Shown here piece by piece: positions 9-17,794 of a DNA stretch of 20,326 bases. The DNA lies in the IMG/VR virus record IMGVR_UViG_3300006921_000222, positions 1-20,326 of that record; one strand, 5' to 3'. Below the pieces are notes generated by a model, which did no database searches, was not told the origin of the DNA, and saw only the letters and a program-made list of their open reading frames with translations. Position 1 is the stretch's first letter. Every line of letters begins with the position of its first letter. The position numbers were made by a program, and so were the translations under genes. Source of the DNA: a virus.

Positions 9-761
9 ATGGCAAAACAACGCAATAAGATAAAAAATGATGTAATTAAGCAGATTAGACTGTTACTTGGTGACGGTATGATTGACATCGAATTAGACCC
101 AGAACATTATGACCTTGCAATTGATGTTTCAGTAGATAAAATAAGACAACGTTCAGAGAACGCAGTACAAGAAGATTTTTATACTATTGAACTAAAGAAA
201 GAGGTCGAAGAATACACTCTTCCTAAAGAAATAACAGAAGTTAAAAAGATACATCATCGTTCATTTGGTCATGGTATATCTTCTGGTGTTGATATGGACC
301 CATTTGAATTAGCATATGCGAATTCATATTTCTTTATGAACAATCACGTTGGTGGTATTTCAACATACGAATTGTTCTCTCAGTACCGTGAAACTCTAAA
401 CAGAGTTGCGGCAACTGACATTCAGTTTATTTGGAATCCACTTACTCATAAGATGAAACTTTTAAGAAAAATGAGAGCAGACGAAATGGTATTGCTTCAT
501 GTTTACTTAGAACGTTCAGAAGACCAATTGCTAACAGACCCATATCTAAAATCATGGATGAGAGATTACTCACTAGCATATTGTAAAAGAATGATTGGTG
601 AAGCCCGTTCTAAATTCGCTACACTACCTGGCGCACAAGGTGGAGTTTCATTAAATGGTGATGCCTTAAAAGCAGAAGCGTCAGTTGAGATAGAGAAATT
701 AGAAACTGAATTGAAACTATATATCGATGGCTCTGCACCGTTAGGTGTTATGATTGGCTAA
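9..761 (+). CDS. 13: Neck protein, T4 gp13-like
   Basis: This 250-aa protein is probably the T4 gp13-type neck protein, which sits between portal and tail and closes the DNA-filled head before tail joining. The clearest evidence is the C-terminal third: a W-x-x-D-Y-x-x-A segment (about residues 182-190), then an L-P-G-A-Q-G-G-V-S-L-N-G run, then an acidic helix, then a hydrophobic PLGVMIG end. T4 gp13 ends with the same order (WVKDYATAL, LPGGVTIDG, acidic helix, PPFGILVG). The N-terminal helical part (DVIKQIRLLLGD, IELDPEHYDLAID) matches the same family. T4 gp13 is about 309 aa, so this one is shorter in the middle. The ATG lies 8 bases from the window edge, so its ribosome binding site is barely covered. 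The next gene starts 2 bases after the stop. Recognised by eye only; another neck/connector protein is the alternative. Confidence 0.75.
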   Translation: MAKQRNKIKNDVIKQIRLLLGDGMIDIELDPEHYDLAIDVSVDKIRQRSENAVQEDFYTIELKKEVEEYTLPKEITEVKKIHHRSFGHGISSGVDMDPFELAYANSYFFMNNHVGGISTYELFSQYRETLNRVAATDIQFIWNPLTHKMKLLRKMRADEMVLLHVYLERSEDQLLTDPYLKSWMRDYSLAYCKRMIGEARSKFATLPGAQGGVSLNGDALKAEASVEIEKLETELKLYIDGSAPLGVMIG

Positions 762-4457: not shown

Positions 4458-4478
4458 ATGGGCAACTGTATGTTAAGT

Positions 4479-4487
4479 GATAAATAC
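4479..4487 (+). promoter_or_regulatory. Late promoter box GATAAATAC
   Basis: This is a close match to T4 late TATAAATA. With the box at -13 to -6, +1 falls at about 4492, which is the A of the ATG of the next gene. The message would be leaderless or nearly so. Confidence 0.75.
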
Positions 4488-4491
4488 AGTT

Positions 4492-6411
4492 ATGCGACTA
4501 AACGAAGTAATATTACACGAAGAAAAACTAGACGTAAAGTCAGTTATAACTTCGTCTATCAAAAAGTTAGATAAAGTCTTTAAGAGCAACAAATACGAAC
4601 TAAGAATAGTTGGTGGTGCTGTTCGAGACCTTGCTTTGGGTAAAACACCTAAAGATATTGACTTGGCAACTGATGCCACACCAGATGAAATGATTGCTAT
4701 ACTTGATAAAGCAGGCATTAGACACAAACCTACAGGATTAGAACACGGCACTATTACTGCAATCCTAGATAACGAACCATTTGAAATCACAACACTAAGA
4801 GCAGACAAAGAAACAGACGGCAGACATGCTGAAGTTGAGTTTGTTCGCAGTTGGGAAGAAGATGCTAAACGCAGAGACTTAACATATAATGCTATGAGCA
4901 TGGATATGGAAGGTAATGTATTTGATTACTTCGATGGAATGGACGATTTACAAGATAAAGTCAGTAATTTTGTGGGCGATGCAGATGAACGTATCAAAGA
5001 AGACTATTTGAGAATATTAAGATACTTCAGATTTCAAGGTAGACTTTCTACTCCATCTTGGGATAAAGATACGTTAAAAGCAATCAGTTCAAACGCAAAA
5101 GGTTTACAGAATATAAGTTCTGAACGTATATGGCAAGAAATGAGTAAAGTTCTTGCAGGCAATAATGTTGCTAATGTTTTAGACCACATGGCTAAATCAG
5201 GTGTCAGCAAAGTTATAGGATTATCAACAAACGATTTAAACAAAGTAAAAGATAAAGGTAACCCCATTGTTGCACTAGCACAAATGGGAAACACAACAGA
5301 TATAGTAAAACGTTGGAGATTAAGTAACAACGAATCGGCTCTGTTAGACTTTTTAGTTAAGAATAAAAACAATTCTCTTGACCAAAAGAAAGTAGAAGAT
5401 ATGATTGCTGATGGAGTTAGCAAAGATTTAATTTCAGCACTGGCAACTTTACAAGGCAAAGATGTAAACATTGATGCAGAAGTTCCAAACTTTCCTGTTA
5501 CAGGAGCAGATTTAATTGCAAAAGGTATGAATCCAGGACCAGAAATGGGCGCAAAACTTGGACAACTTAAACAAAAGTGGAAGCAAAGTAACTTTACTGC
5601 TACTAAAGATGAATTATTAAAAGAGAATTCAGATTTATCAACTCAAAGAGGTAGATTAGAATACTATCTAAAGAAACCAGTTGAAGATGGAATGTTAGTT
5701 CATCTATCGGGTTTAGGAAAGTTTCATAAAGATAACGATGAATTAGCAGATATAGTCCCAGAAAGAAATGGAGTATATGCTTTACATCCTGATAAATGGG
5801 AAAGCACATTCTATAGCCTAACAAACAAAGATTTCAAAAAGATTGTTCACTATAAACCAACATTAATAAAAGCACCAGCAGATATGATTGTTGCTGATAT
5901 GGCTATTGCAAATAGATTTTATAGAACAGATAATCCAGAAGAACAAGAACAACTTGCTAAAGAATACAAAGATAGTATAGACAAAGATATATCTAGTATG
6001 AAGATGCCAGAAGTGATTATGCCTAGTGCAGTATTAGAAAAAATTACTAAACGTACTCCAATGGGTGCCGTTATTGATGACTTCTACAAGAGTGACGCAC
6101 CTCAGTTTAAAGGTAAGAGTAAAGCAAAAAGAAGAGAAATGGCTATAGCGGCAAAGTTATCTAAAATGGATGAAGCAGTTCATCAGTTTATGACAGGTCA
6201 TGGCGTTACTTTTGCTGGTAATAAATATGATGAGATAGAGATTGAAGTGACTGGTACTGATAATGTGAATAGGATGTATCACGTTATGATACTAGCACCA
6301 AAAGAATTATTTGGCAAGAAAACTCAAATCTCTTCTAAGTATATGAATAGAGGACCATGGACTAAGACAAAAGTAGATAATGTATTTGGAGAAGATATAG
6401 ATGTTGATTGA
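4492..6411 (+). CDS. CCA-adding enzyme/poly(A) polymerase-like nucleotidyltransferase fused to unknown C-terminal region
   Basis: The N-terminal half is a class II tRNA nucleotidyltransferase/poly(A) polymerase. It has GGAVRD at 41-46, the metal-binding D-x-D in DIDLATDA (55-62), RRDLTYNAM at 127-135 and E-R-I-K-E-D-Y-L-R-I-L-R-Y-F-R-F at 166-181. Such enzymes add CCA to tRNA 3' ends or A tails to RNA; the motifs alone do not say which. Bacterial CCA enzymes are about 400 aa. Here about 240 further residues (roughly 400-639) show no domain I recognise. ATG 4492 is chosen over GTG 4477, which lies upstream of and overlaps the late promoter box. No Shine-Dalgarno sequence precedes it. The first residues (MRLNEVILHEE) loosely resemble a gp21-type cleavage site (L-x-E). 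It overlaps the HAD gene by 11 bases. Confidence 0.85.
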   Translation: MRLNEVILHEEKLDVKSVITSSIKKLDKVFKSNKYELRIVGGAVRDLALGKTPKDIDLATDATPDEMIAILDKAGIRHKPTGLEHGTITAILDNEPFEITTLRADKETDGRHAEVEFVRSWEEDAKRRDLTYNAMSMDMEGNVFDYFDGMDDLQDKVSNFVGDADERIKEDYLRILRYFRFQGRLSTPSWDKDTLKAISSNAKGLQNISSERIWQEMSKVLAGNNVANVLDHMAKSGVSKVIGLSTNDLNKVKDKGNPIVALAQMGNTTDIVKRWRLSNNESALLDFLVKNKNNSLDQKKVEDMIADGVSKDLISALATLQGKDVNIDAEVPNFPVTGADLIAKGMNPGPEMGAKLGQLKQKWKQSNFTATKDELLKENSDLSTQRGRLEYYLKKPVEDGMLVHLSGLGKFHKDNDELADIVPERNGVYALHPDKWESTFYSLTNKDFKKIVHYKPTLIKAPADMIVADMAIANRFYRTDNPEEQEQLAKEYKDSIDKDISSMKMPEVIMPSAVLEKITKRTPMGAVIDDFYKSDAPQFKGKSKAKRREMAIAAKLSKMDEAVHQFMTGHGVTFAGNKYDEIEIEVTGTDNVNRMYHVMILAPKELFGKKTQISSKYMNRGPWTKTKVDNVFGEDIDVD

Positions 6412-12885: not shown

Positions 12886-12912
12886 AAAGTCTCCTTAGTG
12901 AGACTTTTTTGT
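12886..12912 (+). terminator. Rho-independent terminator
   Basis: AAAGTCTC (12886-12893) pairs with GAGACTTT (12900-12907) around CTTAGT, and six T residues extend to 12910. It ends the transcript carrying the two acidic protein genes, just before the 3' end of the convergent tRNA gene. Confidence 0.85.
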
Positions 12913-12915
12913 TTT

Positions 12916-12992
12916 TGGCCTGCCCGACAAGATTCGAACTTGTGACCTTTGGTTCCGCAAACCAATGTTCTATCCAACTGAACTACGGGCAG
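12916..12992 (-). tRNA. tRNA-Arg (anticodon GCG)
   Basis: The minus strand folds into a full cloverleaf. The acceptor stem is CTGCCCG/CGGGCAG (7 bp), the D arm GTTC/GAAC with GG and A20 in the loop, and the anticodon stem TTGGT/ACCAA with loop TTGCGGA. A 5-base variable loop and the T arm ACAAG/CTTGT with loop TTCGAAT complete it. The discriminator is G and CCA is encoded (12916-12918). The anticodon GCG reads CGC and, by wobble, CGU. The body resembles bacterial tRNA-Arg(CCG), and A20 and C35 fit Arg identity. Most bacteria use ACG (inosine) for this box, so GCG is unusual. It lies downstream of the minus-strand 97-aa gene, beyond that gene's terminator. Confidence 0.93.
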
Positions 12993-13512: not shown

Positions 13513-15075
13513 ATGGCAGATTTAACTAAAAAACCATATCAAAAAACCCAATTTAGTAATACACAATTGTTAGAATTTAGCAAGTGTATGTCAGACCCGT
13601 TCTATTTTTTGAACCAGTATTTCTGGATTCAGCATCCAACACAAGGGCAAATACTATATGCGGCATATCCATATCAACATGATTTGGCAAAGTCTTATCA
13701 TAATTATAGATTTTCTATATCTATGTTGGGCAGACAGATGGGTAAATCAACAACTGCGGCTGGTTATCTGTTATGGTATGCAATGTTCAATCCAGACCAA
13801 ACAGTTCTGATTGCGGCACACAAATATTCTGGTGCCCAAGAGATTATGCACAGAATTAGATATGCATATGAGATGTGTCCAGATTTCATTCGTGCAGGTG
13901 TAACAAACTATAACAAAGGTAGTATTGAATTTGATAATGGCTCTCGTATCATTGCTCAAGCAACAACAGAAAATACTGGTCGTGGTCTTTCAATCTCACT
14001 ACTATACGCAGATGAGTTTGCGTTTGTGCGACCAACAATTGCGAAAGAGTTTTGGACTTCTATATCTCCAACATTAGCAACGGGTGGTAAAGCAATTATC
14101 ACTTCAACACCAAACTTAGATGATGACCAATTCGCAATCATCTGGTCAGGTGCTAATAAGCAATTAGATGATTATGGAAACGAAACAGATGTGGGTATAA
14201 ATGGTTTTAAACCGTACAAAGCATTATGGCATCAACATCCAGACAGAGATAAACAATGGTCAGTTGAAGAAGAAGCACGTGTTGGTAAAGAACGTTTCTT
14301 AAGAGAACATGAATGTCAGTTTATTGCCTACGATGAAACTCTAGTAAATAGTTTGAAGTTGTCGGGGATTAAAGGTGTTGAACCAAAATTGCGTACAGGA
14401 CAAATTCGTTGGTTTGAAGATATTAATAAAGATTCTACTTATGTTGTTGGACTCGACCCATCCATGGGAACAGGTGGCGACAATGCCGCTATTCAAGTTT
14501 GGGCATTACCAGAACTCACACAAGTTGCAGAATGGCAAAATAATAGAACAGATGTGAGAGGACAAGTACAGACAATGCATACAGTTCTCACTATTATTAA
14601 AGATGAGATGACAGAACTAGGAAATACTCAACCAGATTTATATTGGTCAGTAGAGAACAACTCATTAGGAGAAGCCGCTCTTATAGTCATTGAAGAAATG
14701 GAAGAAGATAGATTTCCTGGAACATTCTTGCACGAGCCGAAGAAAAAAGGTAGACAGAGGGTTTCCAGAAAAGGATTTACTACAACTTATAAGACAAAAA
14801 TCACAGCCTGTATGAAAATGAAATCTTGGATTGAAAGTGATAAAATGATTCCTATGAGTAAAAACTTAATAAGAGAATTGAAAACATTTATAGCAAAAGG
14901 TAAAAGTTATGAGGCAAAATCTGGAGAAACAGATGATTTAGTGTCAGCAACCCTATTATGTGTGAGACAAATACAGTTTATATCAAGATTTGAAGAAGGA
15001 TATGAAGAAATGCTTGGTGAGAGACTAGACGATGCAGATAGTGATTATTCAGAGCCACTTCCTGTGATATTTTGA
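13513..15075 (+). CDS. 17: Terminase large subunit, gp17-like
   Basis: This is the DNA packaging motor ATPase and headful nuclease, docking on the portal. The ATPase has Walker A GRQMGKST (73-80), Walker B LLYADE (163-168, catalytic E168) and the coupling motif STPNL (198-202). The RNase H-like nuclease follows with D315 (VVGLDPSMGTGGD), E381 (SVENNSLGE) and D474/D475 (GETDDLVS), matching the D/E/D triad of T4 gp17. At 520 aa it is shorter than T4 (610), mostly at the termini, as in marine T4-like phages. No good Shine-Dalgarno sequence is seen before ATG 13513. An out-of-frame ATG at 13506 opens only seven codons. The TGA stop is shared with the next late promoter box. Confidence 0.96.
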   Translation: MADLTKKPYQKTQFSNTQLLEFSKCMSDPFYFLNQYFWIQHPTQGQILYAAYPYQHDLAKSYHNYRFSISMLGRQMGKSTTAAGYLLWYAMFNPDQTVLIAAHKYSGAQEIMHRIRYAYEMCPDFIRAGVTNYNKGSIEFDNGSRIIAQATTENTGRGLSISLLYADEFAFVRPTIAKEFWTSISPTLATGGKAIITSTPNLDDDQFAIIWSGANKQLDDYGNETDVGINGFKPYKALWHQHPDRDKQWSVEEEARVGKERFLREHECQFIAYDETLVNSLKLSGIKGVEPKLRTGQIRWFEDINKDSTYVVGLDPSMGTGGDNAAIQVWALPELTQVAEWQNNRTDVRGQVQTMHTVLTIIKDEMTELGNTQPDLYWSVENNSLGEAALIVIEEMEEDRFPGTFLHEPKKKGRQRVSRKGFTTTYKTKITACMKMKSWIESDKMIPMSKNLIRELKTFIAKGKSYEAKSGETDDLVSATLLCVRQIQFISRFEEGYEEMLGERLDDADSDYSEPLPVIF

Positions 15076-15082
15076 TAAATAC
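15074..15082 (+). promoter_or_regulatory. Late promoter box GATAAATAC overlapping gp17 stop
   Basis: Exact late-type box beginning within the terminase TGA stop. Predicted +1 is about 15087 and the next ATG is at 15108. Confidence 0.75.
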
Positions 15083-15107: not shown

Positions 15108-16565
15108 ATGGCAGTAAATTTAAACGATATCGCAAATAAGACTATGAAGTTGATGCAGGGCAGTGGACACAAGATGAGAATGTTCGATGCTAATAGCGGC
15201 AAGAGTGTAGCGACACCAGATGAAGCAAGATTCTTTTACGTTAAAGAGCCAAACATGATGGTTCATATTGATGGGAACACCAATGAACTAAAGTTTCATA
15301 TCGGCGAAGACGTTGCTATAGATAATCCAGAAATTAATAGTATGATGAATCAACTGAAGTCCTTAGCACGTACCAATATGCTAGATTTCGATATTCGTTC
15401 ATTTGGAAAACATATTGAACCTAAGAACTATGCATATAAGGTTAAACAAAACAAGGAGAATACCATGAATGACTTATTCAATGAAGGCATGGGCCCATTG
15501 TCTGGGTCATCACGTACTAGCCGTCAAACATTAGAAAACGTACGTCTAATATTAAAACATCGTGCGCCAGTAAACGAAGAATCTCGTGGTTCTCGTTCAC
15601 GTAATATCTCAGCAATCTTCGTTGAGACTGGAGAAGGCGAACGTTTCAAATATCCATTTATTCACTTGAATGGTGCAAGAGCAATGGCAAGACATATCGC
15701 ATCAGGTGGTGAAACACATGATATGGTAGGCGAAGCAATTGTAGAGTTGTCTAGTAATCTAGCACAATTAAAAGAGTTCACTAAGATAGTAGATAAACAA
15801 CAATTAGTAAATGAAAACAATCGTAAAGTTGTACTAAATGTTAGACGCAGTATGAACTCAATCAAAGAAAAAGTACAGAGAATTCAAGGTGCTAGAGGTT
15901 ATGCTAAATTTGTTGAAGGTATTGCTCTTAATGGTGAAAATACACAAGCAGAGATTTCAGAAGAAACATTAGATTCATACGTTCAAAAATTCACAAAGAC
16001 ATCATTTGAAGAATCGTTAAAAGATATTCTACCATTAGTTCATCGTGTAAATGAAGAAGAATTTGAAAATCGTAGAGATAATCAAACTGCAAGAGTTAAA
16101 GAAATAATGACAGCGACAGTTAAGAAGACTGGCGAGAGAGTTAACAAGATATCATTTGGCGAGCCAAGTAATCCAGCATATGATTACGATAAAATTAAGA
16201 AGCAATTTGCTGAACCTCGTACACCAGAAGAAGCGGCTGAACAGAAGATTTCTAAAATTGCAATGACTTTTGATGATATTGCTGATAGAGTAACAGTAGA
16301 CACACTAAAAGATAAAGGTGCTAAGAAGAAAGGCCACGACTTGGCGGCTGAAATTTCTTTCTTCTTAACAGATATTGCAGATGCTATTCGTTCTAATCCA
16401 AGAGGTATTGATAAAGAAGATATGCAAGTGGCAGGAACACTACTTAAGATGTCAAAAGCATCAGTAGAAACCGTAGAGCCAAAATCAGCAGACGTACAAA
16501 TATCTGAAATGCTTGAAGAAGCATTCTCAAAATTCGACCCAGACAGAGTGCTTATAGAAAATTAA
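15108..16565 (+). CDS. Conserved-looking 485-aa phage protein of unknown function
   Basis: I recognise no enzyme motif in this mostly helical, charged 485-aa protein. Residues 1-115 form a compact region (for example DEARFFYVKEPNMMVHIDG and NELKFHIGEDVA). A second region begins at M120 and is rich in Arg and Ser (GSSRTSRQTLENVRLILKHR), followed by long helices and an acidic C-terminus. M120 is preceded by AAGGAGAA (15453-15460), a better ribosome binding site than that of the annotated start (GGAAA before ATG 15108). Two products, or a fusion of two ancestral genes, are therefore possible. Its late promoter and place between gp17 and a terminator suggest a virion or assembly protein. Confidence 0.8.
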   Translation: MAVNLNDIANKTMKLMQGSGHKMRMFDANSGKSVATPDEARFFYVKEPNMMVHIDGNTNELKFHIGEDVAIDNPEINSMMNQLKSLARTNMLDFDIRSFGKHIEPKNYAYKVKQNKENTMNDLFNEGMGPLSGSSRTSRQTLENVRLILKHRAPVNEESRGSRSRNISAIFVETGEGERFKYPFIHLNGARAMARHIASGGETHDMVGEAIVELSSNLAQLKEFTKIVDKQQLVNENNRKVVLNVRRSMNSIKEKVQRIQGARGYAKFVEGIALNGENTQAEISEETLDSYVQKFTKTSFEESLKDILPLVHRVNEEEFENRRDNQTARVKEIMTATVKKTGERVNKISFGEPSNPAYDYDKIKKQFAEPRTPEEAAEQKISKIAMTFDDIADRVTVDTLKDKGAKKKGHDLAAEISFFLTDIADAIRSNPRGIDKEDMQVAGTLLKMSKASVETVEPKSADVQISEMLEEAFSKFDPDRVLIEN

Positions 16566-16573
16566 TTTTCTAC

Positions 16574-16603
16574 TTGACATTCATTGTCAACCTATGCTAT
16601 AAT
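16574..16603 (+). promoter_or_regulatory. Consensus sigma70 promoter P1 upstream of SSB
   Basis: TTGACA (16574-16579) and TATAAT (16598-16603), with an 18-bp spacer and TG one base upstream of the -10, form a near-ideal host promoter. It begins 9 bases after the preceding stop. Predicted +1 (about 16610) falls within the left arm of the terminator hairpin that follows. Confidence 0.85.
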
Positions 16604-16604
16604 C

Positions 16605-16632
16605 AAAGAGAGTGTTAAAACTCTCTTTTTTT
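16605..16632 (+). terminator. Rho-independent terminator next to early promoter
   Basis: AAAGAGAGT (16605-16613) pairs with ACTCTCTTT (16620-16628) around GTTAAA, and the T tract runs to 16632. It ends transcripts from the late 485-aa gene and so separates late from early transcription, but lies immediately downstream of promoter P1. Confidence 0.85.
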
Positions 16633-16669
16633 ATGCTTCCAAAAACATTCAAAAAGACTGATTTAATGC

Positions 16670-16698
16670 TTGACTTTAAGAAAAAAGATAAGTATAAT
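16670..16698 (+). promoter_or_regulatory. Sigma70 promoter P2 upstream of SSB
   Basis: TTGACT (16670-16675) and TATAAT (16693-16698) are separated by 17 bp. Predicted +1 is about 16705, giving a leader of about 85 bases to the SSB ATG. As it lies beyond the terminator, it is the likelier productive promoter. Confidence 0.8.
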
Positions 16699-16789
16699 AG
16701 TATCATTAGTAGAAATATTTGTGATACATAAAAACTAATAAAAAACTAATAATAAGAAAACTAATAAAGGCTAATATAGGAGAAATATA

Positions 16790-17794
16790 ATGGCAACACT
16801 AGCAGAAATCCGTGCAAAACTTCTTGCACAAGACAACAAAGCATCAGAGAACTCTTCCTCAAATAGAGGGACAGATGCAGTCTATCCCTTCTGGAATATG
16901 GAAAATGACAATACATCAGTATTGAGATTCCTTCCAGACTCAGACCCCACTAACACATTCTTTTGGAAAGAACGTCAAGTTATTAAACTTCCGTTCCCTG
17001 GTGTTAAAGGCGGTGACGAAACTAAACGAGTAATCGTTCAAGTACCTTGCGTTGAAATGTGGGGCGAATCGTGCCCAATTCACGCAGAGATACGTCCTTG
17101 GTTTAAAGACCCAGCAATGGAAGACCTAGGTCGTACATATTGGAAAAAGCGTTCATACGTTTTCCAAGGTTTGGTTGTATCTGACCCTATCGGTGGTGAA
17201 CAACCAGAAAATCCAATTCGTAGATTTATCATTGGACCACAAATTTTCAAGTTATTGAAAGCGGCTCTAATGGACCCAGACATGGATAATCTACCAACGG
17301 ATTATGAACAAGGTACAGACTTCCGTCTTACTAAAACACAAAAAGGTCAGTATGCTGACTATTCAACTTCATCTTGGTCACGTAAAGAACGTTCACTAAA
17401 TGAAGAAGAACGTCAAGCAATTGAAACTCATGGTCTTTTCGACTTGAATGAGTTCATGCCAAAACGTCCAACTGAGGATGACATGCGAGTAATCACAGAG
17501 ATGTTTGAAGCATCTGTTGATGGTGAATTGTATGACCCAACTCGTTGGGGACAGCACTATAAACCTTATGGGTTAGATGTTCCAGCAGGAACTTCTGCAC
17601 CTACAACTTCAACTCCATCTGCTCCAAAAGTAGAAGAAGTTAAAGAAGTTGCACCAGCAGAAACAACACCTGTTGCTGAAACACCAACACCAACGCCAAC
17701 ACCGGCACCAGCAACAGCAGAAACGACTGCTGATGCACCGAAGGCCGATGCGGCAGATATCTTAGCAATGATTCGTAGTAGAAAAACTGACTAA
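16790..17794 (+). CDS. 32: Single-stranded DNA-binding protein, gp32-like
   Basis: gp32 coats ssDNA at replication forks and works with UvsX/UvsY in recombination. The N-terminus LAEIRAKLLAQ is the protein-protein (cooperativity) segment. The core (residues about 30-260) has I-K-L-P-F-P-G-V-K-G, then V-P-C-V-E-M-W-G-E-S-C-P-I-H (C87, C95, H98, the probable zinc site), then RPWFKDPAMEDLGRTYWKKR, all as in marine T4-like gp32. The zinc ligands are spaced C-x7-C-x2-H rather than as in T4 (H64, C77, C87, C90). Residues 265-320 form a Pro/Thr/Ala-rich linker (TPTPTPTPAPATAE) ending with ADILAMIRSRK. The length of 334 aa is near T4's 301. The ATG has a strong AGGAGAA site. Confidence 0.93.
   Translation: MATLAEIRAKLLAQDNKASENSSSNRGTDAVYPFWNMENDNTSVLRFLPDSDPTNTFFWKERQVIKLPFPGVKGGDETKRVIVQVPCVEMWGESCPIHAEIRPWFKDPAMEDLGRTYWKKRSYVFQGLVVSDPIGGEQPENPIRRFIIGPQIFKLLKAALMDPDMDNLPTDYEQGTDFRLTKTQKGQYADYSTSSWSRKERSLNEEERQAIETHGLFDLNEFMPKRPTEDDMRVITEMFEASVDGELYDPTRWGQHYKPYGLDVPAGTSAPTTSTPSAPKVEEVKEVAPAETTPVAETPTPTPTPAPATAETTADAPKADAADILAMIRSRKTD

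Follow-up and report, generated by a model that had tools for sequence, protein, structure and literature searches.

How late RNA can be stopped and early RNA started within about 60 bases, as phages require, is the question raised by a short gap in the 20,326-base virus record analysed here, the whole of which will be referred to as the window. In this gap, between a structural gene (15108-16565) and a gp32 gene (16790-17794), are found a promoter P1, a hairpin followed by a T run, and a second promoter P2. If the answer proposed below is true, a stop signal from which its own promoter is exempt would account for such a switch without any added factor, would correct readings of promoters of this kind as attenuated or as decoys, and would furthermore supply laboratory gene circuits with an insulator-promoter part of very small size. 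The rule is moreover directly testable by shifting the hairpin by a few bases.

Layout of the boundary between the structural gene and gp32

The upstream gene (15108-16565, plus strand) encodes a virion structural protein according to its match to phrog_13484 (E 8.6e-29), a Pfam search with the same protein having returned no match, and the downstream gene (16790-17794, plus strand) encodes a gp32-like single-stranded DNA-binding protein (PF08804, phrog_1192). These assignments are in agreement with the late/early boundary that an earlier note on this DNA had placed here, the late timing of the former gene and the early timing of the latter being presumptive. The motif GATAAATAC at 15074-15082 (plus strand), 34 nt ahead of the upstream gene, is likely a T4-type late promoter motif; it occurs in five copies on the plus strand of the window (4479, 7648, 10753, 13474 and 15074) and in one on the minus strand where 0.2 would be expected per strand, and it is enriched in longer relatives too. 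Profile matches to a T4-type terminase, a contractile tail sheath, a UvsX-like recombinase and gp32, together with the GATAAATAC motifs, place the phage among the T4-like myoviruses taken in a broad sense. Among named phages, the gp32 proteins nearest to that of the window occur, for example, in PA5oct-type Pseudomonas phages (~285-288 kb) and in Sinorhizobium phage Phosso, in every case at less than 60% protein identity, and on reading the PA5oct sequence a TTGACA was found before gp32 and no joined hairpin with a T run was seen there. Elsewhere in the window a terminator is called on both strands next to a tRNA-Arg gene (12886-12992), and a polyA-polymerase-head/tRNA nucleotidyltransferase-like protein is encoded at 4477-6411.

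P1 (16574-16603, plus strand) is composed of TTGACA (16574-16579) and TATAAT (16598-16603), a match in 12 of 12 positions, separated by an 18-nt spacer that includes a TG at 16595-16596. The upstream ORF stops at 16565 and the -35 opens at 16574, the ninth base, which bears out the earlier statement that P1 begins 9 bases past the late gene. Against the -10 lies a predicted intrinsic terminator (16605-16632, plus strand), with its left arm AAAGAGAGT at 16605-16613, the loop GTTAAA at 16614-16619, the right arm ACTCTCTTT at 16620-16628 and the T run at 16626-16632, and the computed folding energy of the hairpin (16605-16628) in read-through RNA is -11.3 kcal/mol. Transcription usually starts 7 nt after the -10, and by this rule the +1 of P1 would be G16610, a position that indeed lies within the left arm of the hairpin, as had been claimed. 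P2, the likewise anticipated promoter of gp32, is found further downstream at 16670-16698 (plus strand; TTGACT-17-TATAAT, 11 of 12 match), and a promoter is called at the equivalent position in most gp32 relatives as well.

The gp32 leader (16699-16789) carries, where transcription from P2 is predicted to start, an inverted repeat, GTATCA (16700-16705) and TGATAC (16722-16727), and past this repeat CTAATA units recur up to the ribosome site and are kept in relatives; this leader resembles the one through which T4 gene 32 is autoregulated. The palindrome TTGACA-TTCAT-TGTCAA within P1 is not taken to be an operator, because relatives retain the promoter but lose the palindrome, and a leader peptide starting at the ATG behind the T run was likewise dismissed, its frame not being kept among relatives as judged by reading the sequences.

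Folding and conservation of the hairpin

Promoter-like sites alone are no commoner in the window than in shuffled sequence (70 versus 74.8, sd 8.9). The combination of a promoter with at most one mismatch and a terminator within 14 nt occurs once on the two strands of the window and is absent from 855,720 shuffled bases (one strand), and when up to 3 mismatches are allowed the same 855,720 bases (one strand) yield three promoter-terminator pairs.

Relatives were gathered by way of gp32 (best 80 of 592) and of the upstream protein (57), 6 of the 133 sequences being without a usable gp32 start. At a gp32 identity of about 72% or higher there are 66 loci, of which 65 have enough upstream DNA (L013 is too short), and P1 together with the hairpin is present in 65/65. 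This search demanded TTGACA and TATA[AC]T, so that invariance here means no miss among the 65 eligible loci, which correspond to 56 contigs and count both the window and L001, its own copy. The -35, the -10 and the TG of P1 are constant across 18 different spacers (65/65 eligible loci); L020, the sole locus between 72 and 81% identity, has 72% gp32 identity, TATACT as its -10 and a different hairpin, and the remaining loci are at 81-100%. By its 12/12 match and its conservation in 65/65 loci P1 is thus predicted to be a strong sigma70-like promoter. In some relatives an additional ORF-like stretch is inserted between the structural gene and P1, directly ahead of the latter in for instance L098, L099, L113, L114 and L121-L123, and the element is still found beside P2 and gp32 (by reading).

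At 68-72% gp32 identity (L018, L022-L031) a terminator is found at the matching place in 11/11 loci and no linked promoter exceeds 9 of 12 positions, whereas L020, which falls in this band as well, has both promoter and terminator. The retention of a terminator without a promoter of P1 grade in these 11 relatives suggests that the terminator may be the older of the two and that P1 may later have been built onto its flank. Below 67.5% identity a terminator is found by the same criterion in 4/48 loci, 3 of the 48 having less than 160 nt of upstream DNA, and in L265 (67%) a 10-pair hairpin overlaps TTGACA-18-TACATT in a register like that of RB49, discussed below (promoter by reading).

The stem begins 0-1 nt past the -10 in 18/18 hairpin variants, and in read-through RNA the full hairpin folds at -9.5 to -13.3 kcal/mol. 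RNA started from P1 at position 7 folds at 0 to -4.0 kcal/mol with at most 4 pairs, and when started at position 8 or 9 it forms no pairs (0 kcal/mol); a start at position 6 leaves up to 5 pairs and -4.5 kcal/mol, and partial termination would therefore be possible in that case. With the +1 at the seventh base, the outer 5-6 stem pairs are outside the P1 RNA, and these pairs alternate between A-T, G-C and G-T among the 18 variants with the pairing preserved. The number of Watson-Crick pairs is 97/103; when arms of different variants were re-paired 2,000 times, it averaged 79.6 and never exceeded 88, in a control that ignores kinship and mixes stem lengths. The stem finder accepted fully paired stems only, and pairing in 103/103 is thus built in; the alignment had the right arms out of register, and the pairs were therefore counted by script. 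Since pairing is kept in bases outside the P1 RNA, the incoming RNA appears to be what the hairpin acts on.

P1 and its hairpin are real and conserved, and we consider it probable that they form a composite boundary element between a presumed late structural operon and the presumed early gp32 operon, one that terminates incoming late RNA and exempts the RNA of its own promoter. RNA arriving from upstream would contain both hairpin arms and the U run and would terminate near 16632, and the host's RNA polymerase, carrying a sigma70-type factor, would also initiate at P1. Because the predicted +1 lies inside the left arm, P1 RNA would be without most of that arm and unable to fold the terminator, and it would continue past P2 into gp32; the element would in this way halt all transcripts but its own. 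Both promoter and terminator are here presumed to function in vivo, as is the passage of P1 RNA through the hairpin. The possibility, raised previously among others, that late read-through is stopped and early transcription goes on is the best-supported one. Against it stands the fact that P2 is in principle enough for gp32, which would make P1 dispensable.

Similar elements in other phages and rival explanations

Related arrangements were sought with the query TTGACA-16..18-TATAAT followed by T7 within 17-47 nt, identical sites being merged. Among the matches listed, viral contigs gave 116 distinct sites, 30 of them with a hairpin and 23 with a stem whose first base is at -3 to +2 nt relative to the -10 (abutting), the membership of some loci in this TTGACA/TATAAT scan being taken from their numbering. 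A control with reversed -35 gave 95 sites, 5 with a hairpin and 0 abutting, again among the matches listed, and on these counts the difference in abutting stems is significant (Fisher p = 4.3e-7), with the provisos that the class -3..+2 was defined after the data had been seen and that the control is unmatched for intergenic position. Bacterial contigs yielded, among the matches listed, 120 sites of which 8 have a hairpin and 1 is abutting. When two viral scans are pooled (matches listed), there are 149 sites, 40 with a hairpin and 32 abutting. The gene downstream is codirectional in 31/32 of these abutting elements listed, and the genes on both sides are so in 26/32; furthermore, in 23/32 the T run begins no more than 34 nt ahead of an ATG that opens an ORF of 50 aa or more. 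The proteins encoded downstream of these elements make up 17 groups, of which the largest has 11 members, and 3 of the elements come from the clade of the window. One abutting element (L402), in surroundings of the cyanophage type, precedes a talC-like gene (gene by reading). In Synechococcus phage SynMITS9220M01 (L692:1530-1575) a TATAAT without a good -35 lies just ahead of the terminator hairpin behind psbA (by reading).

The 115-kb relative G001 has two promoter-terminator elements with at most 1 mismatch, which are of unlike sequence. The second of these is near 66771 (L166:6500-6900) between Hsp20-like and ClpS-like genes (names by reading), and it is kept in L184-L191, where L190 and L191 have different stems, and by reading also in L194, with TTGACA-17-TATACT; in more distant Hsp20 relatives (L195-L198, L200, L204) hairpins are present but no clear promoter is. 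Just upstream of this element are ClpX-like, IF3-like and S21-like ORFs (names by reading). Its own RNA, when started at position 7, retains 9-10 pairs at -7.3 to -11.7 kcal/mol in 7/7 loci folded and could therefore terminate itself, and 6-7 pairs are retained in the own RNA of 5/32 abutting elements listed. Truncation of the hairpin in the promoter's own RNA, as predicted by folding, is common and not universal. It is conceivable, although we would sooner doubt than assert it, that phages of unrelated kinds follow a common design rule, in which a consensus promoter is joined to the terminator of the preceding operon with the left arm placed before the +1, so that only the promoter's own RNA passes. 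Such fusions would then have originated several times, in three registers or more (in the spacer, around the -10 and immediately behind the -10), and would be uncommon in bacterial genomes.

Other explanations of the P1 hairpin have to be considered. The earlier note suggested that P1 could be a source of tiny RNAs. These would be of ~20-25 nt, would start near 16610 and end in the T run, and would serve as a sponge or signal or be mere waste. A strong promoter immediately ahead of a U run is what such a function would call for, and the 9-10 pair hairpin of the Hsp20/ClpS RNA indicates that this other element could make tiny RNAs, but the P1 RNA can form no more than 4 pairs when started at position 7 and no pair at all when started at 8 or 9, and in look-alikes the ATG mostly follows so soon after the T run that there is no space for another promoter. 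For P1 this explanation is consequently not favoured and seems unlikely to us. Nor do we favour the suggestion that P1 is a decoy, since the stem begins right behind the -10, the P1 RNA retains a weak stub only and the outer half of the stem keeps its pairing.

A role of the hairpin mainly as a 5' stabiliser of the P1 mRNA, or as an attenuator of P1 opened at an anti-termination point, which would require some factor, is less likely still and in our opinion quite improbable. A 5' hairpin on the gp32 mRNA would fit such a role, and distant relatives do have inverted repeats right behind the gp32 promoter (by reading), but too little of the stem is left in the P1 RNA, the conserved pairing covers bases outside that RNA, and the terminator is retained without P1 in the 11 relatives described above. 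Finally, promoter and terminator may overlap merely because phage gaps are short, without any functional link between them, and the -35 is indeed at most 10 nt from the upstream stop codon in many abutting elements. Compaction alone however predicts no fixed offset, in poor agreement with the 0-1 nt found in 18/18 variants and the -3..+2 found in 23/30 viral hairpin sites listed, and we consider this explanation unlikely.

Relation to known promoter-terminator arrangements

Composite promoter-terminator cassettes of T4-like phages, named PeSL (promoter early stem-loop), were reportedly treated by Arbiol 2010 and Comeau 2014. PeSL cassettes have been described as recombination modules that shuffle genes. 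In published accounts citing that work, the PeSL cassettes of T4-like phages are an early promoter joined to a stem-loop (PMC4503421, PMC5931544). PeSLs share with the window element, as predicted here, a strong sigma70-like promoter that is combined with a stem-loop where the space between genes is short, and the combined stem-loop terminator of PeSLs has a likely counterpart in the hairpin and T run against the -10 of P1. In RB49, a hairpin begins between the -35 and about +18 at 33/134 promoter-like sites; of these hairpins 12 lie at about -30 to -12, 15 at -24/-20 to about +1 and 6 elsewhere, 4 of the last lying entirely past +1. Hence 27/33 hairpins belong to two registers that end at, or at most 2 bases from, the +1 and would be missing from the promoter's own RNA, which is the same logic as in the window. 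The register is however different, since the window hairpin extends from about -5 to +19 with a T run and those of RB49 end at about +1 or earlier, and the repetition typical of PeSLs, which occur as numerous similar copies in variable parts of the genome, is absent, there being 1 copy in the window and 2 unlike ones in the 115-kb G001, with the genome incomplete. Because of these differences in repetition and register the window element is not filed as a PeSL, yet it follows PeSL logic in a third register, and PeSL cassettes may be an instance of a more general transcription device. Consensus promoters in which a GAGCCGC/GCGGCTC hairpin has the -10 as its loop, an arrangement like that of RB49-type PeSLs, were also noted at L316:5399, L316:5777 and in L318, in a scan with looser hairpin thresholds than those of the abutting-element counts.

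The overlapping frd terminator and ampC attenuator of E. coli likewise place a promoter ahead of a terminator serving the operon before it, but the full hairpin is there within the ampC RNA and attenuates ampC, whereas the P1 RNA would, with the predicted +1, be without most of the left arm (0 to -4.0 kcal/mol). Phage lambda pR'-tR' is similarly a phage promoter followed by a terminator, the promoter being constitutive; tR' is however well downstream inside the transcript and is overcome by Q, whereas the stem in the window begins ahead of the +1. Inverted repeats are also seen within the -35/-10 spacer of several consensus promoters of these phages (e.g. TTGACAGATATGATATCTGTGCTATAAT), located at 949-978 of the window and in L164, L167, L174 and L294, and spacers folding at -3 kcal/mol or lower make up 25.7% of 105 promoters, many of them related variants, against 8.6% of shuffled spacers.
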